Below the pieces are notes generated by a model, which saw nothing but the letters and a program-made list of their open reading frames with translations, was not told where the DNA came from and searched no databases. A program made the translations under genes and the position numbers. Positions 42,962 through 52,303 of a stretch of DNA of 52,501 bases are shown in pieces (the stretch's first letter is position 1; each line of letters begins with the position of its first letter). The stretch comes from an uncultured marine group I thaumarchaeote (GTDB lineage Archaea; Thermoproteota; Nitrososphaeria; Nitrososphaerales; Nitrosopumilaceae), in contig CABXQD010000004.1 in NCBI GenBank assembly GCA_902514275.1, forward strand, positions 1 through 52,501, written 5' to 3'.

Positions 42962-43144
42962 TTATTTTTTCTTACTTCTTGGCTTAGTTCTTAATACTGC
43001 CTTACAACAAACACATCTTGTATCACAATTCGTCATAAAAATTCCACAAAACGTACATCTCTTTTGTCCAATTTCGTATCTGATTTTATTTGGAACTGCT
43101 TCGGCTTGATATCTTTTACAGATATTTCTACAAGTTCTACCCAA
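42962..43144 (-). CDS. Thaumarchaeal Cys-rich zinc protein (60 aa)
   Basis: R-T-C-R-N-I-C, then Q-K-R-C-T-F-C-G and T-N-C-D-T-R-C-V-C-C near the end, finishing L-R-T-K-P-R. This short family recurs in thaumarchaea. It overlaps the TFB gene by 8 nt and is probably translated from the same mRNA; an adaptor role in transcription is conceivable. Confidence 0.65.
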   Translation of the reverse strand: MGRTCRNICKRYQAEAVPNKIRYEIGQKRCTFCGIFMTNCDTRCVCCKAVLRTKPRSKKK

Positions 43145-44048
43145 TTGTTACATCCCCAATTTTATTTACTATTTCTTTTCTTCTTTCTCTGATTGTTACT
43201 GCACTGATGCCTGAAATTTTTGAAATTTTAAGTTGAGATACTTTCTCCATATTCATTGTGGATGCTAGATGTACTGCTGCTGCAGCCATTGCCATTGGAT
43301 TTTTACTCGTTGAAACTTGTTTTTTTGCACATAAATCCAGTATTTTGAATGCTAGTCTTTGAGTTTTTTCAGATATGGTTAATCCCTTTGCAATTCTGGT
43401 TACAAATTCTGAAGGAGTATAGGCTTCTGGACTGAGGTCCATTTCTTTTGCAAGAAATCTGTATGTTCTTTGCAATACTTTTTTCTTAATGTTTGCTGCA
43501 TCTGAAATGTCTTGTAATGTTCTTGGAGTATCTGTAATTCTACAAGTGGCATAAATTGTTGCTGATAACATTGCTGCTGTAGATCTACCTGCAAGTATTT
43601 TTCTAGCTGCAATTTTTCTAAATAGATATGCACTTTCTTCAATTACTGATTCAGGTAGTCCTAATTTTGAACTAATTGCATCCAATAGTGTGAAAGCTTT
43701 TTGGAATGATTTTGAAGTAACTGCTGAACGACTATTTCTGTCCCACATTCTTAATCTATAGAACATTCTTCTATTTTCAACTGATAGTGATTTTCCTGTT
43801 ACATCTTTATCTTTGGATTCAATTAATGTTGATAATCCCATGTCTATCATTTTCAATGATCTTTTTGCACCAACTCTTGAGTTGTTTTGATAATCACTTG
43901 CATTAAGTCCCGATGATTCCATTCCTAAATCTACAATTGGTTCTAATGACACAATTCCGCAACTGCTACAGGCAATTTCTCCTGTATGTACGTCTGTTAC
44001 CATTTCATTTTTTTTACAATTTCTTTGATGGATTAATTCTGTTAACAT
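43137..44048 (-). CDS. tfb: Transcription initiation factor TFB
   Basis: 303 aa. A zinc ribbon (about 1-35), B-reader/B-linker, and two cyclin-fold repeats (about 105-200 and 205-300) with the C-terminal helix-turn-helix (I-S-A-V-T-I-R-E-R-R-K-E-I) that reads the BRE next to the TATA box. The ribbon is odd: C11, C27 and C30 are present, but the expected first Cys (position 8) is Gln, with His7 beside it. Nitrosopumilus species have several TFBs, so this may be a specialised one. Upstream at 44098-44106 is a degenerate copy of the regulon motif. Confidence 0.92.
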   Translation of the reverse strand: MLTELIHQRNCKKNEMVTDVHTGEIACSSCGIVSLEPIVDLGMESSGLNASDYQNNSRVGAKRSLKMIDMGLSTLIESKDKDVTGKSLSVENRRMFYRLRMWDRNSRSAVTSKSFQKAFTLLDAISSKLGLPESVIEESAYLFRKIAARKILAGRSTAAMLSATIYATCRITDTPRTLQDISDAANIKKKVLQRTYRFLAKEMDLSPEAYTPSEFVTRIAKGLTISEKTQRLAFKILDLCAKKQVSTSKNPMAMAAAAVHLASTMNMEKVSQLKISKISGISAVTIRERRKEIVNKIGDVTIG

Positions 44049-44097
44049 ACCAAATTTCTGCTTTCATTTTATTTAAAAGACAGAATATTTTTGCTCT

Positions 44098-44106
44098 AGT
44101 CGTAAA
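44098..44106 (-). promoter_or_regulatory. Degenerate regulon motif upstream of tfb
   Basis: Minus strand TTACGACTA matches TTAGCACTA at seven of nine positions (GC swapped to CG) and lies at 50-58 nt from the start, about 20 nt before TTTAAATAAAA, the same geometry as the true copies. Confidence 0.3.
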
Positions 44107-44161: not shown

Positions 44162-44172
44162 GTTGGCACTAT
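44162..44172 (+). promoter_or_regulatory. Regulon motif copy upstream of 44220
   Basis: GTTGGCACTAT, 48-58 nt before the ATG and about 20 nt before the TATA box TTTATAAA. Confidence 0.6.
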
Positions 44173-44219: not shown

Positions 44220-44579
44220 ATGCCTCATATTGTATTGAATAAAACTTTGAATCTATTTGATTTTTCAATTTTGTTCAAACCTATTTTTCAGAAATCTCCT
44301 TTGATAAAAATTCAAGATATGTACGTTGACACGAGAGGAACAAATGCGCTTTTTTCTACTGTTGTGATTGATAATTCTCATCATGAATTTTTTATTCAGA
44401 TAATGACTAGTAAAGACAAAACAACAATTAGGTTGTTGCCTCTCACTGATCCTGAAAAAACTGATTTAGTAAAACAGTCTTTGGTAAATCTTTGTTTAGA
44501 AATTCAGAAATATTATCCAGATATGGATGTAATAAAATCAAATTTATGGGATTATCTTAAGAAAAATATTGTCTCATGA
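44220..44579 (+). CDS. Hypothetical protein (119 aa), first gene of a motif-controlled pair
   Basis: Not recognised. Mixed alpha/beta, with H-E-F-F-I-Q-I-M-T-S-K-D-K-T-T-I-R-L-L and a helical end. ATG overlaps nothing upstream; the mRNA is predicted leaderless from TTTATAAA. Its stop overlaps the SRPBCC start as ATGA. Confidence 0.55.
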   Translation: MPHIVLNKTLNLFDFSILFKPIFQKSPLIKIQDMYVDTRGTNALFSTVVIDNSHHEFFIQIMTSKDKTTIRLLPLTDPEKTDLVKQSLVNLCLEIQKYYPDMDVIKSNLWDYLKKNIVS

Positions 44580-45016
44580 GTAGTCATCATCTTGTTCAAA
44601 AAAGTAATCTTAAACGTGATGTATTGTTTCAAATTAGTACTGATATTGAAAATTTTCATAAAATAATGCCTAAATATTTTAAATCTTTGAAGATAATCAG
44701 TAATTCCTCAAATGAAATAATTGTTTTAGAATCTATTGATTTTTTTGGTAGAAAAATCGAAATCAAAACTAAACATATTGTTGTAAAACCCAACATGCAT
44801 AAAGTATTCATTTTAAGTGGTCCTGCTAGAGGAACATCCTTTATTGAAACTTACAATTCAAATTCTTTTGGAACTGATGTTTCTGTTGTTGTGGATTTAA
44901 AACTATGTGGTATTCTAAAATTAATTCCGTTTCTCAAAATTTTACTTTTGAAAAAAATGAATTCTGTAATGTCTGAATTTATTACATGTGCTGAATCTTA
45001 TTCAAAATCTATTTAA
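44576..45016 (+). CDS. SRPBCC (START-like) family protein
   Basis: 146 aa, paralogue of the protein at 37958: L-F-Q-I-S-T-D-I-E-N-F-H-K-I-M-P-K-Y-F mirrors N-I-F-S-N-Y-E-Q-Y-E-K-L-I-P-K-Y-F, and D-V-S-V-V-V-D-L-K-L-C-G mirrors K-I-L-V-D-V-D-L-K-L-T-G. Hydrophobic-ligand-binding fold. SRPBCC proteins commonly accompany SDR/epimerases and photolyases in bacterial light-induced operons. Coupled (4-nt overlap) to the preceding gene. Confidence 0.72.
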   Translation: MSSHHLVQKSNLKRDVLFQISTDIENFHKIMPKYFKSLKIISNSSNEIIVLESIDFFGRKIEIKTKHIVVKPNMHKVFILSGPARGTSFIETYNSNSFGTDVSVVVDLKLCGILKLIPFLKILLLKKMNSVMSEFITCAESYSKSI

Positions 45017-45024
45017 TTTTCATA

Positions 45025-45035
45025 GTTAGCACTAT
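45025..45035 (+). promoter_or_regulatory. Regulon motif copy upstream of the desaturase-like gene
   Basis: Perfect GTTAGCACTAT, 48-58 nt before the ATG at 45083 and about 18 nt before GTTAAATAG. Confidence 0.65.
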
Positions 45036-45082: not shown

Positions 45083-46429
45083 ATGTCTCTGCCTACTGTA
45101 ATTGTTGGTGCTGGTGTTGGTGGATTGACTACTGGTGCACTGTTGGCAAATAATGGTCATAATGTGATGATTTTAGAAAAATCGGGAAAATTGGGTGGAA
45201 GGACTGTTTCTATGGAATATAAAAATCATATTTTAGATAATGGGTTTCATATAATGCCATTTTACAAAAAATCTGCTATTTTCACAATTTTAAAAAATTT
45301 GGGAATTGAATCTAGATTAAAACTTGCAAAAGTAGATGATATTGCATTTTATGCTGACACTGAATTTCATATTTATCCTAAAGGTATGATGGATTTACTT
45401 AAACTATCTTTAATCCCATTCAAAAGCAGAGTTAAACTTCTAAAATTATTACTTCCTTTGGCCTTTTCCTCAATTGAAAAAACAGAATTATGGGATGAAG
45501 TTCCTTTAACAAAAATTACTAGTAATTTGGATTCTGATACAAATGCTTTTTTTGAAGCAGTATGTATGTTGGCCTTTGCTGACACTGCAGATCATATTTC
45601 CTTAGGTGAGTTTGCTAGAACCATAATTAGAGCTAATCCATTTAAAGGTGGAACCAGTGAATTTGCATACCCTGATGGTGGTGGATATGATTCCATATGC
45701 AATGTTCTTGGTGATTTTATTTTAGAAAAAAAGGGAACTATTCAAACAAACCAATCTGTAAAAAAAATAATTGTTGAGAATTCTAAAGTAACTGGAGTTA
45801 TTGTAAGTGATTCTTCTAATTCTGAAAGATTTGTCCAAACTAATTCAGTTGTAATATCATACCCTGCATACACTGCATTAAATCAATTATTTGAGGAAGA
45901 TGTAATTGATAAAAAATTTGTTCAAAAAATTGATAAATTAAATAAAACAACTTCTGTAGTCGAAGTACATTTTGCTCTAAATTCACAAATTGACACTCGC
46001 CAAGTTGTTTTTCCTGTAGGTGATGATTATGTGACTAAAGGTATCTTTTTCATATCTAACATAACTCCATCTGTTTCTCCTCATGGAGAACATTTGATTA
46101 TTGCTGGAACTCCTGTACTTCCTTCTGAAACTGAGGATTCAGAAAAAATTAAAGAAATTGTTAGCAAAATGAAGCAAGAAATATCCTCTATTTATCCAAA
46201 ATTTAGTTCATCATTGTTATGGGAGCGTCCTATGGCTTGGAAATTAGTGGAATCTGTTGTTAAAGAGCCTGGAAAAGTATGGAAATCTAAAATGCCTCAT
46301 GTGATCCCTGGCATTAATGGTTTATTTTTTGTAGGTGATTCTACGATTAGTTATGGTATTGGAACTGATTCTGCAGCCCATAGCTCCATTTTATGTGCTC
46401 CAAAAATTGAATCTTTTTTAAATTCTTAA
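45083..46429 (+). CDS. Phytoene-desaturase-like FAD oxidoreductase
   Basis: 448-aa amine-oxidase/phytoene-desaturase family protein. Dinucleotide-binding I-V-G-A-G-V-G-G-L-T-T-G followed by I-L-E-K-S-G-K-L-G-G-R is textbook, H-I-L-D-N-G-F-H-I-M-P lines the FAD site, and the C-terminal F-V-G-D-S-T-I-S-Y-G-I-G-T-D-S-A closes it. Substrate is likely an isoprenoid or another polyunsaturated lipid; no phytoene synthase is in the window, so carotenoid synthesis is not demonstrated. It is convergent with the B12 sensor gene, whose stop overlaps it by 4 nt. Confidence 0.8.
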   Translation: MSLPTVIVGAGVGGLTTGALLANNGHNVMILEKSGKLGGRTVSMEYKNHILDNGFHIMPFYKKSAIFTILKNLGIESRLKLAKVDDIAFYADTEFHIYPKGMMDLLKLSLIPFKSRVKLLKLLLPLAFSSIEKTELWDEVPLTKITSNLDSDTNAFFEAVCMLAFADTADHISLGEFARTIIRANPFKGGTSEFAYPDGGGYDSICNVLGDFILEKKGTIQTNQSVKKIIVENSKVTGVIVSDSSNSERFVQTNSVVISYPAYTALNQLFEEDVIDKKFVQKIDKLNKTTSVVEVHFALNSQIDTRQVVFPVGDDYVTKGIFFISNITPSVSPHGEHLIIAGTPVLPSETEDSEKIKEIVSKMKQEISSIYPKFSSSLLWERPMAWKLVESVVKEPGKVWKSKMPHVIPGINGLFFVGDSTISYGIGTDSAAHSSILCAPKIESFLNS

Positions 46430-47280
46430 TTAGTTAATGGAATTTTTCGTATAATTTTTGGAATATCTTCTAAACTTGTATCTCCTATGACATTACCTTC
46501 GAATTTTGGAGGGTTATCAATTTGTATTGCATATCCTCCAATTAGAATTGGAATTTTAGTTTGTTGTTTAATTTTCTTTGCTAATCTTTGTCCTGCTAAT
46601 ATGTTGTCTTGAATTGTAATGGAGATTAGTACTACGTCCGGTTTTTTCATATCAATAAATTCTATTATTGATTCAGTTGGTATGGACGTTCCCATGTTAA
46701 ACACTTTGAATCCCTTAATTGTTAGATATGTTTCTAAAACATCACATCCTATGTGGTGTTCTTCTCCTACAGGCACACATAACATTATTTTTTTCTTATT
46801 TCCAGAACCTGAAATTTGGTCCATGATAATTTTTACTAAAGTTTGTGCAACATTACTTGCAACATGTTCTGTTGCAATTGCTAATTTTCCCTTCTCCCAA
46901 TCTTCACCTATTTTGCTCATTACTGGTCTTAAAATTTTATCAAAAAAGTCTGCTATGTTGAATATTTCCACATAATTTTTATAAATTTTAATACATTCCT
47001 CCAAATTTCCATCTGTTAATTTTTTGAATAACTGTTGTTTTGATTTCTTTGTTGCGTCTTCTCTTTTTTGTATGTCTTCTGGATTGTATGATGCTAAAAC
47101 TGATAAAATTTTGGCATCATTTCTGAATTCAGTTGGAATGTCGTCTTTGATTACTTCAGATGCTTTACCTAGATATTTTATAATTTCTTGTTTTGATGTA
47201 CTTTTTTTAGAATCCCATACACTTTTGACTAAATACAGATATTGATCTGATTTTACTTTTTTAGCCCTGATGTAGACCAT
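46426..47280 (-). CDS. B12-binding sensor protein with CarH/LitR-type W-x9-E-H signature
   Basis: 284 aa. Residues 1-45 (R-A-K-K-V-K-S-D-Q-Y-L-Y-L-V-K-S-V-W-D and K-Q-E-I-I-K-Y-L-G-K) form a small basic module also seen at the start of IS1634-type transposases, a plausible DNA-binding part; it is not MerR. Residues 82-155 form the four-helix cobalamin cap with W128 then nine residues then E138-H139. Residues 164-284 are the Rossmann B12 domain with E173-x-H175-x2-G178 providing the lower cobalt ligand and a G-G-Y-A late motif. In bacterial CarH the residue after the Trp is the His that ligates cobalt after photolysis; here it is Glu129. A regulon motif stands upstream, suggesting autoregulation. 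Confidence 0.8.
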   Translation of the reverse strand: MVYIRAKKVKSDQYLYLVKSVWDSKKSTSKQEIIKYLGKASEVIKDDIPTEFRNDAKILSVLASYNPEDIQKREDATKKSKQQLFKKLTDGNLEECIKIYKNYVEIFNIADFFDKILRPVMSKIGEDWEKGKLAIATEHVASNVAQTLVKIIMDQISGSGNKKKIMLCVPVGEEHHIGCDVLETYLTIKGFKVFNMGTSIPTESIIEFIDMKKPDVVLISITIQDNILAGQRLAKKIKQQTKIPILIGGYAIQIDNPPKFEGNVIGDTSLEDIPKIIRKIPLTN

Positions 47281-47327
47281 TAATTTTGTTCAACTTTTAG
47301 ATATATAACTAATGGTAACCATTCCCA

Positions 47328-47338
47328 CTAGTGCCAAT
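47328..47338 (-). promoter_or_regulatory. Regulon motif copy upstream of the B12 sensor gene
   Basis: Minus strand ATTGGCACTAG, 48-58 nt before the start codon at 47280 and about 18 nt before GTTATATATC. It forms a perfect 9-bp inverted repeat (CTAGTGCCA/TGGCACTAG) with the divergent copy at 47356. Confidence 0.6.
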
Positions 47339-47355
47339 TATTTTAAAATTCTAAA

Positions 47356-47366
47356 GCTGGCACTAG
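47356..47366 (+). promoter_or_regulatory. Regulon motif copy upstream of the 47415 operon
   Basis: GCTGGCACTAG, 49-59 nt before the ATG and about 20 nt before GTTAAATATC. Confidence 0.6.
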
Positions 47367-47414: not shown

Positions 47415-47609
47415 ATGGCAGGAACAGAAGAACAAGAATGGGCAAACCTTCTTGCAGAAATCTTTGACAAACTTACACAAAAACACGCCGCAATCACTTA
47501 TGATTTTGACAATCTTGAGATGGCAGGTAAGATTATGAAAGATAAGCAAGTTGTCCCAACTGGTACAGTTTCCCTTAGTGGTAAACTAACCATAACAGCA
47601 AAAAAATAG
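47415..47609 (+). CDS. Hypothetical protein (64 aa), first gene of an SCP2/epimerase operon
   Basis: Small soluble protein: helical first half (W-A-N-L-L-A-E-I-F-D-K-L), beta-rich second half (G-T-V-S-L-S-G-K-L-T-I-T). No family recognised. Codons are rich in C-ending forms, unlike neighbours, hinting at high expression. Leaderless promoter preceded by a regulon motif; next gene begins 8 nt after the stop. Confidence 0.55.
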   Translation: MAGTEEQEWANLLAEIFDKLTQKHAAITYDFDNLEMAGKIMKDKQVVPTGTVSLSGKLTITAKK

Positions 47610-47617
47610 AGTGTGGT

Positions 47618-47989
47618 ATGACAATGAAAAACTTTGATCTACCCGCTAATTTTTTATCTTATTTAGATAAAGGCGCACTAAACATCACATGTGATGGTGA
47701 TCCAACAATTAATTTTCATGTTGATGGCAGCACCAAAATTATTGATATAATTGATATTCCAATTGAAATAACAAAAATGCCTGGATTCTTAAAACAACTT
47801 TCTGAAGCCAAAGAATTGGCAAAAGATTTGACACAGAAGAAAACTACTATTGAAGTTAGATTTCGAGGTGAACCTGTTTTGAAACTTGGAGAGAAAGCAA
47901 ATCCTAAACTTGCAAAAATAATCACTTTAAGTAGCAATATTGAAATCACTGATTTAAGAAAATTAAAAAAATTGAGTGATGTGTTTTAA
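47618..47989 (+). CDS. SCP2-like sterol/lipid-binding-type protein
   Basis: 123 aa. Pattern of a small lipid-binding SCP2-like domain (L-N-I-T-C-D-G-D-P-T-I-N-F-H-V-D-G, T-I-E-V-R-F-R-G-E-P-V-L-K-L-G-E-K-A-N-P-K-L) although the match is by eye. Likely binds a hydrophobic molecule together with the epimerase-like enzyme that starts 2 nt after its stop. Confidence 0.5.
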   Translation: MTMKNFDLPANFLSYLDKGALNITCDGDPTINFHVDGSTKIIDIIDIPIEITKMPGFLKQLSEAKELAKDLTQKKTTIEVRFRGEPVLKLGEKANPKLAKIITLSSNIEITDLRKLKKLSDVF

Positions 47990-47991
47990 CG

Positions 47992-49419
47992 ATGTCTGTT
48001 GAATATTCTCAAAAAAAACCATATGATATTTTGGTTACTGGTTCTACTGGGTTTATTGGAAAAAAATTACTTACAAAATTATCTAATTCTGGACTTAAAA
48101 TTAAAGCAATGTCCAGATCAAAATATTCTGATACTGAAAATGTACATTATGTCCAAGCAGATGCATTTAGTGTTGATTCTTTAACATCAGCAACTGAGGG
48201 GGTTGAAACCGCATTTTATTTACTACATTCTATGGAAGGTTCAAAAAAAGAATGGGCAGAATTTGCAAATAGGGAAAAACAGCAAGCACAAAATTTCTTA
48301 AAGGCTGCAACTAAATCTGGAGTTAAAAGAATTGTTTACCTTGGTGGATTAGTAAATGAAAGTCTGGAATTATCTAAGCATATGAGAAGTAGACATGATG
48401 TTGGAAAAATTTTGGCATCTGGAAATATTCCTGTTACTGAATTAAGGGCATCTGTTATTGTTGGTGCGGAAGGTGGTTCTTATGCTATGCTTCGATATCT
48501 TGTAGAACGATTACCTTTGATGGTATGTCCAAAATGGGTTAAATCTCAAACTCAACCTATTGCAGTTGATGATGTTGTTGATTATCTAATTGGTGTAATG
48601 AAAAATCCTGAAACATCTGGAAAAATTTTAGAAATTGGCGGACCTGATGTAATGACTTATGAACAGTTAATGCGATTATACTCTTCCATTTTAAGTAGAA
48701 ATCTTAACATCATACAAATTCCATTTTTAACTCCTCGGTTGTCCTCTTATTGGATAGATCTAGTAACTCCTGTTAAAGCATCGTTGGCAAGACCTCTTGT
48801 TGATAGTTTAGTTCATGATTCAGTTGTTAAGGACAAATCCATTCAACATTTGGTTCCTGTTAATCTCAAACACATGACAGAAGCTATCTCTGTTGCTAGA
48901 GAGGAAGCAAAATCATTTGAGTCTATTAAAAAATCTCCTGAAGAAAAAACATCTTATAAAATGAATCAAAAAATTCTTTTGATCAGTCTTTGTGCAATGG
49001 CATTTATTGGAACGACCTATTATTGGATGGATGATAGAACTGATGTTTGGGAAATTCCTTGGATAATTGGTTCCATTATTTGGTACGCTGCAATTCTTTT
49101 TGCAATATCTTTTGTTAAACAAAAGGCAAGATTGGGATATTTGATAGGTGGGATACTGGCTTGGATTACTTTGGCATTTTGGTTATTTGATAACTTTTAT
49201 GTTGTATTTGAATTATCTTTGGTCGCATCAGAGCCTAGTCTTGATGTAACTATAAGAAATTTCATTGGTGCTGCAATTGCTGGATTGGCAATATTTTCAT
49301 CTCATAATGTATTTCATAAAGTGAGAGTTTATCAGGCTAGAGGTGAACCTGTATCTGAATCTGCATCTGCTGAAGTTCCTAATGGCGCTAGACCTGTTTA
49401 CAACACTAACTTTTCCTAA
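47992..49419 (+). CDS. NAD-dependent epimerase/SDR with C-terminal membrane domain
   Basis: 475 aa. Residues 1-320 are an atypical SDR of the YbjT/NmrA group: G-S-T-G-F-I-G-K-K-L for NAD(P), R-I-V-Y-L-G-G-L, R-A-S-V-I-V-G-A-E-G-G-S, and G-G-P-D-V-M-T-Y-E-Q-L-M-R-L followed by L-T-P-R-L-S-S-Y-W-I-D-L-V-T-P-V. This module is usually joined to DUF2867; here that domain is replaced by three to four membrane helices (about 325-450). Third gene of the 47415 operon. Confidence 0.75.
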   Translation: MSVEYSQKKPYDILVTGSTGFIGKKLLTKLSNSGLKIKAMSRSKYSDTENVHYVQADAFSVDSLTSATEGVETAFYLLHSMEGSKKEWAEFANREKQQAQNFLKAATKSGVKRIVYLGGLVNESLELSKHMRSRHDVGKILASGNIPVTELRASVIVGAEGGSYAMLRYLVERLPLMVCPKWVKSQTQPIAVDDVVDYLIGVMKNPETSGKILEIGGPDVMTYEQLMRLYSSILSRNLNIIQIPFLTPRLSSYWIDLVTPVKASLARPLVDSLVHDSVVKDKSIQHLVPVNLKHMTEAISVAREEAKSFESIKKSPEEKTSYKMNQKILLISLCAMAFIGTTYYWMDDRTDVWEIPWIIGSIIWYAAILFAISFVKQKARLGYLIGGILAWITLAFWLFDNFYVVFELSLVASEPSLDVTIRNFIGAAIAGLAIFSSHNVFHKVRVYQARGEPVSESASAEVPNGARPVYNTNFS

Positions 49420-49472: not shown

Positions 49473-50069
49473 TTATTTCAATGCTTTGAAAATATCCCCT
49501 TTTTCTGAGTTTGCATATAATAAAAAATATGTTTGCGATGCAAGATATGTTTTATCAAATCTAAATACTATTGGATGTATTTCTGCTAAAATATCTCCAA
49601 TTGTAATTTTTTCATTTTTGTAGTCTTTTAATAATTCAAAAAACTTGTTTTTTTCTAAATCTGAAAAATCTTTGGAAAAAAATCCAAAAATATGCATTAT
49701 TACATTACTGTGTGTTTTGATTGTGGGTTTGTACTGTAAGCATAAATTCAAATTTTTTTCATATTCGTTTAATATTTCTGAAAATTTTATTTTTTTATAA
49801 CTAGCAACAATCCTTCCTAATATTTTCAATTGTTCTTGATTGTGAGCCATAATTAGAAATTTATTCATAGCTTGAAATTCTACTAATTCTCTTACTTTCT
49901 TACTTTTTTTGATATTTTGAAATCTTTCAATAACAAATTGATTAATTTCTTTTTGAGTTAATTCTTTATGATAATTTTGCATTATATCTAACTCCTTCAT
50001 TTTGCTGTATCTGTGCCATACTAGGAGATTCGTTTCTAATTTGCATATAAACAACTCTTGATCAATCAT
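49473..50069 (-). CDS. YbgA-like DUF1722 protein
   Basis: 198 aa. The body (about 30-195) follows DUF1722: V-E-F-Q-A-M-N-K-F-L-I-M-A-H-N, L-G-R-I-V-A-S-Y-K-K, H-S-N-V-I-M-H-I-F-G-F-F-S-K-D-F, and a final Y-L-A-S-Q-T-Y-F. In E. coli ybgA adjoins the photolyase gene phr, and DUF1722 proteins recur in bacterial light-responsive LitR/CarH regulons; their biochemical role is unsettled. The annotated ATG lies only 3 nt from a regulon motif; the ATG at 50000 (M-K-E-L-D-I-M-Q-N), 20-25 nt behind TTTATATGC-type TATA at 50043-50051, fits the regulon geometry better. Confidence 0.75.
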   Translation of the reverse strand: MIDQELFICKLETNLLVWHRYSKMKELDIMQNYHKELTQKEINQFVIERFQNIKKSKKVRELVEFQAMNKFLIMAHNQEQLKILGRIVASYKKIKFSEILNEYEKNLNLCLQYKPTIKTHSNVIMHIFGFFSKDFSDLEKNKFFELLKDYKNEKITIGDILAEIHPIVFRFDKTYLASQTYFLLYANSEKGDIFKALK

Positions 50070-50071
50070 TT

Positions 50072-50082
50072 GTTAGCACTAT
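50072..50082 (+). promoter_or_regulatory. Regulon motif copy between ybgA-like and 50164 genes
   Basis: Perfect GTTAGCACTAT, 33 bp (three helical turns) from the next copy. About 20 nt from the minus-strand TATA at 50043-50051, in inverted orientation to that gene. Confidence 0.55.
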
Positions 50083-50104: not shown

Positions 50105-50115
50105 GTTAGCACTAG
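50105..50115 (+). promoter_or_regulatory. Regulon motif copy upstream of 50164
   Basis: GTTAGCACTAG, 49-59 nt before the ATG and about 17 nt before TTTTAAATAC. Confidence 0.65.
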
Positions 50116-50163: not shown

Positions 50164-50928
50164 ATGAAAACTCTGTTAAGTGCAATTACTACAATTGCTG
50201 CAATCTTAATTGTTAGTTCAAGTATTTCTTCTGTCTATGCAGAAGTTCCTTCTTGGGTGAAAAACAATGCAGGTTGGTGGGCAGAAGGAACAATTGATGA
50301 TGATTCATTTGTTCAAGGAATTCAATTCTTGATCAAAGAAGGAATCATGAGTATTACACAAGTACAAGAATCTAAACAATCTGTATCTAGTACATCTACA
50401 AGCGATGATTCAGTTATTGCTTCACTGGAGGCAGAACTTGAAAAATGTTCAGAAATAGTAAAAGCATACAAGAGACTTGATTGTGAAAAACCAATTAAAC
50501 AAGAAATTCTTGTTCATACATACAAAACTGGTGCTCAATTAATACAAGTAGGACCAATTAATTATTATTGGTTTGGTGTAAATTCTGAGGGCAATACCTT
50601 TGAAATTAGTCCAACTGGACAACCTATTTTGAGTATCCGAATGTTGGCTGATAATACTTCATCAGGAATAGTTAGTTTGAATTGTACTAGCCCCGCAATT
50701 TGTAACTATGATGTTTGGGATGGTTCAAAATCTTTCAAATACTCTGGAATGGATTTCACTAGTGGACAAATTAATCTCAACCCTGGAACTGCTAAAGAAT
50801 TCAATATTTTATTTGGTCCAAATATTGGATATGGTGGAACTGAATTTGAATATGACTCTTCAAAAACATACACTTTCAGAATCAATGAGCCCTTTGGCAG
50901 TTTAGATGTTCATCTAGACTTGGAATAA
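50164..50928 (+). CDS. Secreted W-V-K-N-N-A-G-W-W protein with beta domain (254 aa)
   Basis: Signal peptide (1-26, cleaved near V-Y-A-E-V), one W-V-K-N-N-A-G-W-W module (about 30-65), a linker with coiled coil, and a C-terminal beta domain (about 115-254) containing two conserved Cys pairs (K-C-S ... D-C-E; N-C-T ... I-C-N-Y-D). The following gene has the same C-terminal domain. Likely a cell-surface or extracellular protein; ligand unknown. Confidence 0.65.
   Translation: MKTLLSAITTIAAILIVSSSISSVYAEVPSWVKNNAGWWAEGTIDDDSFVQGIQFLIKEGIMSITQVQESKQSVSSTSTSDDSVIASLEAELEKCSEIVKAYKRLDCEKPIKQEILVHTYKTGAQLIQVGPINYYWFGVNSEGNTFEISPTGQPILSIRMLADNTSSGIVSLNCTSPAICNYDVWDGSKSFKYSGMDFTSGQINLNPGTAKEFNILFGPNIGYGGTEFEYDSSKTYTFRINEPFGSLDVHLDLE
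50812..50866 (+). repeat. 55-bp exact repeat, copy 1
   Basis: Identical to 52187-52241; both encode the G-P-N-I-G-Y-G-G-T-E-F-E-Y-D-S-S-K part of the shared C-terminal domain. Confidence 0.9.
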
Positions 50929-50966
50929 CTTCTTTTTCCCACTTTTATTTATTTTTCCGATTTGTA

Positions 50967-50977
50967 GTTAGCACTAT
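50967..50977 (+). promoter_or_regulatory. Regulon motif copy upstream of 51026
   Basis: Perfect GTTAGCACTAT, 49-59 nt before the ATG and about 18 nt before TTTATATAA. Confidence 0.65.
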
Positions 50978-51025
50978 AGATATCTAGTTCTATTTTTTAT
51001 ATAATTCAAAAAATTTATTTTTTTT

Positions 51026-52303
51026 ATGAACATCCTCATGTTAATTATTCCTTTACTTGTTTTTACTATTCCTGTGGCATTTGCAGACTCTCCCAATATT
51101 GGTACTGTGAATTGGAAACAAGAAATTATTTCCTCAAATTCTTTTGTTGATATTTACGTTCATGATGATGATATGAATAAAAAAGAATATCCAAATTTTG
51201 CGGACAAATTTACTATATCTGTCTGGTCTGATTCTTCTCCAGGTGGTCTTGAAATAGAAGTTGTAGAAACTGGAGTGTACAGCGGAATTTTCAAAGGACG
51301 TGTTTTTATTGCTGATTCTGGAGATACTGTAAAAAATCGTCTAGTTTCACTTCCTGGTGATACTGTATATGCAAAATACGTTGATTTTACCATGCCTGAT
51401 GATTCTACATCTGAAATATTTTCTGCTGCAATTGTTAAAATTTCTGGCCAAAACATGGAATCATTACTTGAAAAAATAGATCCTAAATTCCGTATGTCTA
51501 AATTTGTTGAAAAAGTACCTGTTTGGATCAAAAACAATGCAGGATGGTGGGCAAATGGTGATATTGATGATGATTCTTTCATACAAGGAATTCAATTTTT
51601 GATTAAAGAAAAAATTCTTGAAATAAATGAATCTACATCATCAGAAAAAAGTGATACCATTCCTCCATGGGTAAAGAATAATGCAGGATGGTGGGCTGCA
51701 GGGGATATTACTGAATCTGATTTTCTTAGTGGAATTACTCATCTTGTAAAAACAGGAATTATTTCCGTAAGTGATGATTCTCTTGAATCTATTGCCAAAT
51801 CTGATCCTCTTTTATCCGAATGTCAATCAATTAAATCTACATACAAAAGACTCAACTGTGAAAAAGAAATTAAACAAAATATTGAATTTACTGAATTTAA
51901 AAAATTTTCAGATGGATATAATGTTGGTTCTGTAACTTACTATTATCCTGGAATTGGAAATTTTGGAAATGAATTTGAGATTAGTTCTTCTGGTCAAGCA
52001 ATGCTTCGATTAAGAATTTTAGCTGAAAATACAGGTAATGATGTTGTTTCATTAAAATGCACAGGGCCATCTATTTGCAGTTATGATGTTTGGGATGGTT
52101 CTAAGACATTCAAATATGCTGGTATGGATTTTATATCTGGCCAAATTCCGATAAATCCTGGAACTTCAGTTATTTTCAATATGATGTTTGGTCCAAATAT
52201 TGGATATGGTGGAACTGAATTTGAATATGACTCTTCAAAAAATTATGATTTTAGAGTTAATGAGAGCTTTGGAAGTATAGATATTCCATTAAAAATTGAA
52301 TAA
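51026..52303 (+). CDS. Secreted protein with two W-V-K-N-N-A-G-W-W modules (425 aa)
   Basis: Signal peptide (1-20, ending V-A-F-A-D), an N-terminal beta-sandwich (about 22-145) of the kind found in thaumarchaeal surface proteins, two W-x-K-N-N-A-G-W-W modules (about 165-205 and 210-250), then the same C-terminal beta domain as the gene before (K-S-T-Y-K-R-L-N-C-E-K ... Y-D-V-W-D-G-S-K). It is thus an enlarged paralogue of its upstream neighbour. Confidence 0.65.
   Translation: MNILMLIIPLLVFTIPVAFADSPNIGTVNWKQEIISSNSFVDIYVHDDDMNKKEYPNFADKFTISVWSDSSPGGLEIEVVETGVYSGIFKGRVFIADSGDTVKNRLVSLPGDTVYAKYVDFTMPDDSTSEIFSAAIVKISGQNMESLLEKIDPKFRMSKFVEKVPVWIKNNAGWWANGDIDDDSFIQGIQFLIKEKILEINESTSSEKSDTIPPWVKNNAGWWAAGDITESDFLSGITHLVKTGIISVSDDSLESIAKSDPLLSECQSIKSTYKRLNCEKEIKQNIEFTEFKKFSDGYNVGSVTYYYPGIGNFGNEFEISSSGQAMLRLRILAENTGNDVVSLKCTGPSICSYDVWDGSKTFKYAGMDFISGQIPINPGTSVIFNMMFGPNIGYGGTEFEYDSSKNYDFRVNESFGSIDIPLKIE
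52187..52241 (+). repeat. 55-bp exact repeat, copy 2
   Basis: Identical to 50812-50866 although flanking coding sequence has diverged; third-position identity suggests recent duplication or gene conversion. Confidence 0.9.

Follow-up and report, generated by a model that had tools for sequence, protein, structure and literature searches.

Background

The closest described systems are CarH and class I LitR (Thermus, Myxococcus, Bacillus and others), which share with the archaeal protein described here a cobalamin domain with a Wx9EH motif and a lower His, and whose genes also have those for photolyase, SDR and FAD oxidoreductase as neighbours; these kinds of gene are known from bacterial carH/litR regions (PMC9758184). 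The signature of light-responsive cobalamin domains has been given as GxxW, EH, GxxH and GxxxP (PMC11796333), and in CarH the Trp and the Glu-His pair hold the adenosyl group (PMC11796333, PMC9304148). The same four-part signature is found in CtMerR, the photocobilins and other SignatureFinder CBD photoreceptors, in which, as in the archaeal protein, the residue at position 132 of CarH varies (PMC11796333). Their partner domains are MerR-like, diguanylate cyclase or bilin-binding, whereas the archaeal protein has a transposase-like N-terminus; the main text of PMC11796333 names no archaea. Photolyases of sunlit clades of ammonia-oxidising archaea are known, and no B12 regulator is named with them (PMC9239080).

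The protein analysed here is probably a B12-based light-sensing transcription regulator that controls a photoprotection regulon in ammonia-oxidising archaea through the box TTAGCACTAG. This reading is based on a computational analysis of its domains, motifs and conservation, its linkage to photolyase, and a promoter box tied to the presence of the sensor gene.

The sensor gene and its cobalamin domain

The window (the whole stretch of DNA analysed, 52,501 nucleotides) contains the sensor gene and the following neighbours and coding features.

43137..44048, (-): TFB (transcription factor B) paralogue, from Pfam and neighbour clusters; regulon member
from 44220, (+): 119-aa gene, with a box 57 bp ahead
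44576..45016, (+): SRPBCC/polyketide-cyclase-like protein (weak Pfam match), flanked by the 119-aa gene and the FAD oxidoreductase
45083..46429, (+): FAD-dependent oxidoreductase (Amino_oxidase/CrtI-HpnE-like), in convergent orientation to the sensor gene
46426..47280, (-): B12 sensor gene, 284 aa, ATG start, of a Nitrosopumilus-like archaeon
46753..46767, (-): lower-ligand motif G172EEH175H (residues 172-176), from sequence and alignment
46864..46908, (-): light-response motifs G125xxW128 and E138H139 (residues 125-139), from alignment and the PMC11796333 signature
47125..47280, (-): N-terminal module, residues 1-52, from an HMM; putative DNA-binding part
47415..47609, (+): 64-aa conserved protein, opening the divergent unit
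47618..47989, (+): 123-aa conserved protein, same divergent unit as the 64-aa gene
47992..49419, (+): SDR/NmrA protein with a C-terminal membrane part, from Pfam and neighbour clusters
49473..50069, (-): DUF1722 (YbgA-like) protein, from Pfam

The sensor consists of the N-terminal module (1-52), a linker, a four-helix bundle (82-152) and a Rossmann B12-binding domain (165-255). The bundle matches Pfam B12-binding_2 with 44.5 bits (cut-off 23) and the Rossmann part matches B12-binding with 50.3 bits (cut-off 32.1); no significant Pfam match was obtained for residues 1-80. The top NCBIfam profile is CarH (60.3 bits, E 2e-16, residues 79-229), which outranks pyl_corrinoid, MtbC and MetH, the corrinoid profiles reaching 40-55 bits. 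For this CarH equivalog (NF052513) the sensor lies below the cut-off of 400 bits, as does Azoarcus LitR with 116, while TtCarH reaches 510.

W128, E138, H139 and H175 align to W131, E141, H142 and H177 of TtCarH without gaps inside the motifs, and residues 125-139, GEDWEKGKLAIATEH, form a gap-free alignment with GEAWHRGEIGVAEEH of TtCarH. The W-x9-E-H motif and the ExHx2G lower-ligand motif are thus where the first-pass annotation had placed them. All four elements of the light-response signature are present (G125EDW128, E138H139, G172EEH175 and G197TSIP201). The longer pattern D/ExHx2G-x41-SxT-x22-27-GG is also complete, as E173-x-H175-x2-G178, 41 residues, S220-x-T222, 25 residues and G248G249. 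Since W128, E138, H139 and H175 are invariant across 34 sequences, with orthologues 68-92% identical, the motifs represent more than chance; divergent homologues also retain the W/EH residues, with the exception of one derived paralogue group. Additionally, a cobalamin adenosyltransferase is present in 11 of 13 good relative genomes, so that AdoCbl is available in principle.

An AlphaFold model built from the 34 sequences (mean pLDDT 72.6, the first 50 residues low) displays the four-helix bundle and the Rossmann domain. All 50 PDB matches listed by Foldseek for this model are CarH/LitR, photocobilin or CtMerR light-type domains. The best of them are CarH, with E ~1e-10; TM is mostly 0.4-0.58 and rmsd ~6 A for this model of pLDDT 72.6, and an rmsd of <2 A was used for structural likeness to the TtCarH CBD in PMC11796333.

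E129 aligns to H132 of TtCarH, so the His of the bis-His light state is missing. The identity of this residue was correctly read in the first-pass annotation, but the altered or absent photochemistry suggested from it was too cautious and need not follow. Arg, Gln and Tyr occupy this position in the photoresponsive CtMerR, SasPcob and AbDPcob, respectively (PMC11796333), and Trp-Glu is also found by alignment in Azoarcus LitR and in the Ilyobacter and Pontibacillus cobalamin domains. Because proven photoreceptors and bacterial relatives vary here, Glu129 is no argument against light sensing. In CarH H132A, photolysis occurs, yet the protein mostly remains tetrameric (PMC10442372); with His132 absent, the output step of the archaeal sensor must therefore differ.

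Compared to CarH and class I LitR, the archaeal sensor is without a MerR domain, has Glu for His132, would act at an archaeal promoter and scores 60 bits against a cut-off of 400. No MerR domain was found in it by the Pfam and NCBIfam scan, in a library whose MerR profiles do match CarH. Because of the missing MerR domain and His132 and the score below the CarH cut-off, the sensor is not filed as CarH. What stands of the earlier label, a CarH/LitR-like B12 sensor in an archaeon, is the CarH-type cobalamin domain; the best reading is a protein that works like CarH/LitR and is not a member of that family.

The N-terminal module

Residues 1-52 are highly conserved among the sensors. An HMM of these residues matches DDE transposases at their N-termini (E from 7e-10 to 4e-5), which, together with the lack of a MerR match, agrees with the earlier description of a non-MerR N-terminus like that of IS1634 transposases. 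Apart from sensors and transposases, the HMM matches the N-termini of some Fic proteins. IS4/IS1634-like DDE transposases and archaeal Fic proteins therefore have this module in common with the sensor, but their catalytic domains are unrelated. Fic-domain proteins bearing the module are seen at L142-L145 (genomes G040, G064, G106 and G079).

Structure prediction was also run for the module alone, as had been proposed for residues 1-50, and gave a pLDDT of 48.6 and no fold. A profile search returned no PDB relative (best E 1.2, as by chance). The module may have an AP2/integrase-arm-like fold. From its place in the protein and from the transposases, it is putatively the part that binds DNA.

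The promoter box and its reader

The box TTAGCACTAG and its inverse are common to the upstream regions of the 34 sensor orthologues. In the window, the following boxes were found.

44096..44105, (-): TTACGACTAG, 57 bp before the TFB gene
44163..44172, (+): TTGGCACTAT, 57 bp upstream of the 119-aa gene (44220)
45026..45035, (+): TTAGCACTAT, 57 bp upstream of the FAD oxidoreductase
47309..47318, (-): box 2 in the promoter of the sensor, TTACCATTAG, directly adjoining the TATA-like TTATATA (47302-47308)
47328..47337, (-): box 1 in the promoter of the sensor, TTGGCACTAG, 57 bp upstream of the start codon
47357..47366, (+): divergent-promoter box, CTGGCACTAG, 58 bp upstream of the 64-aa gene
50073-50082: second box by the promoter box of the secreted protein at 50164
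50106..50115, (+): TTAGCACTAG, 58 bp upstream of the secreted protein at 50164
50968..50977, (+): TTAGCACTAT, 58 bp upstream of the secreted protein at 51026

Seven window genes thus have a box 57-58 bp ahead of their start. The region 47328-47366 had been singled out earlier as a site to which the sensor might bind, and it is retained as a candidate operator; its apparent palindrome, however, is two opposed boxes, one for each divergent promoter, and the repeat finder did not report these two facing boxes as one inverted pair.

Boxes were counted within 200 bp upstream with at most 1 mismatch. Of 68 sensor loci, 58 have the box upstream. In orthologous upstream regions it precedes DUF1722 (38/38), the secreted proteins (42/44), the FAD oxidoreductase (30/33), the 119-aa gene (32/38), TFB (33/44) and the 64-aa gene (17/17); no box was found in eight unrelated neighbour clusters, and shuffled sequences gave mostly 1-5%. 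Its position is nearly constant, starting 56-59 bp before the start codon in 187 of the 226 promoters scored. A weaker second box is seen 18-19 bp further down in 85 of 172 non-redundant promoters, and in the promoters scored it abuts a TATA-like element at 29-34 bp. Tandem boxes also precede the sensor in families f2 and f3, where the protein is 30-45% identical, and an inverted pair is found in f7. In the 0.88-Mb own genome the exact box occurs 9 times, three of them on the photolyase contig, against 0 for the reversed control. Two further promoters with boxes, those of a MacB-like ABC permease gene and of a 95-aa protein, were seen in the own genome and in G066 as distant regulon members (L109, G000:C1:98549; L110, G000:C2:7886; L172; L190).

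The box also follows the presence of the sensor. Within one genus, genomes with the sensor average 10.5 boxes (control 2.3) and those without it 4.6 (control 1.7; p=1e-5). In complete, sensor-positive G066, 10 of 13 exact boxes lie 50-67 bp before a start codon, whereas ORFs contain 29 of the 30 exact boxes of three sensor-negative genomes, and no box there was seen to serve a promoter. A chance origin of the box was rejected on this coding placement, together with the shuffles and the count in the own genome.

An alternative is that the B12 domain senses light while the box is read by another factor, either the TFB paralogue or an unseen regulator, with the B12 protein acting by protein contact. 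Box 2 coincides in part with the BRE position, the site of TFB binding, and the TFB paralogue is a conserved member of the cluster. Additionally, G111 has boxes, this TFB, SDR and photolyase, with no sensor detected (C89 L237 and C69 L238 of a 120-contig assembly); an assembly gap, a recent loss or another box reader would explain this exception. However, G052 lacks the TFB orthologue and keeps the sensor and boxed promoters. The same is true of G003, G069, G093, G100 and G099, of other genera or families, in which the best TFB match is 40-44% identical and boxes before the sensor are kept (L083, L085, L077, L076 and L081). Moreover, the stronger box 1 is 29 bp from TATA, beyond the usual reach of BRE contacts, and no other DNA-binding gene is equally widely linked. 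The TFB paralogue was therefore rejected as a necessary box reader, and a separate reader of any kind is considered unlikely. At G060:C1:793004-793862, the cluster TFB is in two overlapping pieces in different frames and seems disrupted; the boxes remain.

Gene neighbourhood and linkage to photolyase

The recurrent neighbours of the sensor are the SDR/NmrA membrane protein (48 loci), the TFB paralogue, DUF1722, the FAD oxidoreductase, the SRPBCC-like protein, secreted proteins and photolyase. The two secreted proteins of the window (50164-52303) contain repeated VPxWVKNNAGWWA segments and are conserved regulon members. In the bacterial carH/litR regions examined, photolyase, SDR and FAD oxidoreductase are of the same kinds as in the archaeal cluster, and the window SDR is 34% identical over 270 aa (E 2e-50) to one SDR of the T. 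thermophilus carH region.

Among 200 class genomes, the sensor is present in 29 of 31 photolyase-positive genomes and in 46 of 169 others (Fisher p=1.8e-12). The association holds inside family f1 (p=2.3e-8) and inside a genus (p=7e-4); these counts treat genomes as independent, so the p-values are overstated, and the physical linkage does not depend on that assumption. The sensor gene is 1-10 kb from photolyase in 18 of the 29 genomes carrying both, and in 3 of those 18 (G066, G126 and G172) the copy near photolyase is a paralogue without the W/EH residues. The 46 sensor-positive genomes in which photolyase was not detected indicate that photolyase is not the sole target.

These genomes also bear on the second alternative, in which the protein is a light-independent B12 or redox sensor, with cobalamin loading or oxidation state as the switch and photolyase within a general stress regulon. 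The regulon includes oxidoreductases and secreted proteins that are not specific to light, and His132 is missing. Against this stand the complete light-response signature, with W128, E138 and H139 among its residues, the strong photolyase linkage, and the best fold matches, which are all of the light type among those listed. A sensor of this kind is judged improbable.

Distribution and relationships of the cobalamin domain

Sensor homologues are found in 75 of the 200 class genomes, in several families of one order, and most are full length. When 398 genomes of the phylum were scanned, 46 were positive, every one of them in that same order. The homologue search proposed at first has therefore revealed a family spread across the order, and the protein is not an isolated oddity.

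In a tree of cobalamin domains, the archaeal sequences are grouped together (90/96, not starred), with MetH and corrinoid proteins apart from them in a starred group of their own; long branches make the placement of TtCarH and LitR uncertain. A corrinoid carrier serving a methyltransferase system (MtaC/MtbC/MetH type) shares the Pfam domains and would account for the 40-55 bits of the corrinoid profiles, but it is very improbable and was rejected, since these profiles score below CarH, the motifs and the tree speak against it, no methyltransferase or activator gene was found among the scanned neighbours, and a fused N-terminal module and a promoter box are ill-suited to an enzyme subunit.

Proposed mechanism and significance

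For the light-sensing regulator preferred here, AdoCbl binding and photochemistry, box binding by the N-terminal module and a change of oligomer are the steps that we infer. The C-terminal half would hold AdoCbl base-off between the four-helix bundle and the Rossmann domain, with W128, E138 and H139 surrounding the adenosyl group and H175 as the lower ligand. The N-terminal 52 residues, the module shared with transposases, would bind the box TTAGCACTAG. Oligomers loaded with AdoCbl might, in the dark, occupy a single box or a pair spaced by 18-19 bp, directly upstream of the TATA/BRE region and in contact with it; in light, the Co-C bond would be broken, the assembly would change and so would transcription. 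The likely targets are a dozen or so promoters, belonging to photolyase, the oxidoreductases, SDR, the TFB paralogue, other photoprotection genes and the sensor's own gene. Dark repression is favoured over activation as the probable mode because of the analogy with CarH and because box 2 overlaps the BRE/TATA region; an activator would also be compatible with the constant spacing between box and TATA.

On balance, these features appear to represent a new architecture, in which a transposase-related module couples a CarH-type photosensor to archaeal promoters via a box fixed in position at BRE/TATA, with a light-blind paralogue lacking W/EH beside it. In the open-access literature searched, no earlier report of an archaeal B12 photoreceptor was found, nor of any photoreceptor controlling genes of marine ammonia-oxidising archaea. 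Ammonia oxidation in marine archaea is inhibited by light, a factor that shapes the distribution of nitrification. The analysis provides a concrete candidate sensor, a likely regulon and a DNA box for culturable Nitrosopumilus and Nitrososphaera species. If true, such a light switch would be described for the first time in archaea; it would extend B12 photoreception to them, add a new kind of output domain and illustrate how a switch of this sort operates on an archaeal promoter.

The paralogue without W/EH

The own genome (G000) has a second copy on contig C33 (L069:4102-4902), 36% identical to the sensor. In the group of this paralogue, to which L070-L072 and L087 also belong, W128 and E138/H139 are lost and H175 is kept, and in the tree it is placed inside the archaeal group. 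Its gene on C33 and a MEDS-domain gene are divergently oriented, an HTH_45 winged-helix gene lies nearby, and in some genomes the paralogue adjoins photolyase. It resembles class II LitR and Myxococcus CarA, a B12-independent paralogue of CarH, in the loss of the Trp, which CarA lacks from the motif (PMC9304148). Unlike these, it has also lost EH, has the archaeal N-terminal module and lies opposite a MEDS-domain gene. The tandem box is not present before it in the upstream regions compared; a different conserved element, ACTCATCAAGGTGCGTAAT...GGATTAAATACTA, is seen there.

Proteins of 181-203 aa with boxes in front flank photolyase at L103 (2207-2815 and 4257-4805), L070 and L104-L106. They display a weak similarity to the DICT domain (13-15 bits, below the cut-off) and are possibly more light-linked sensors.
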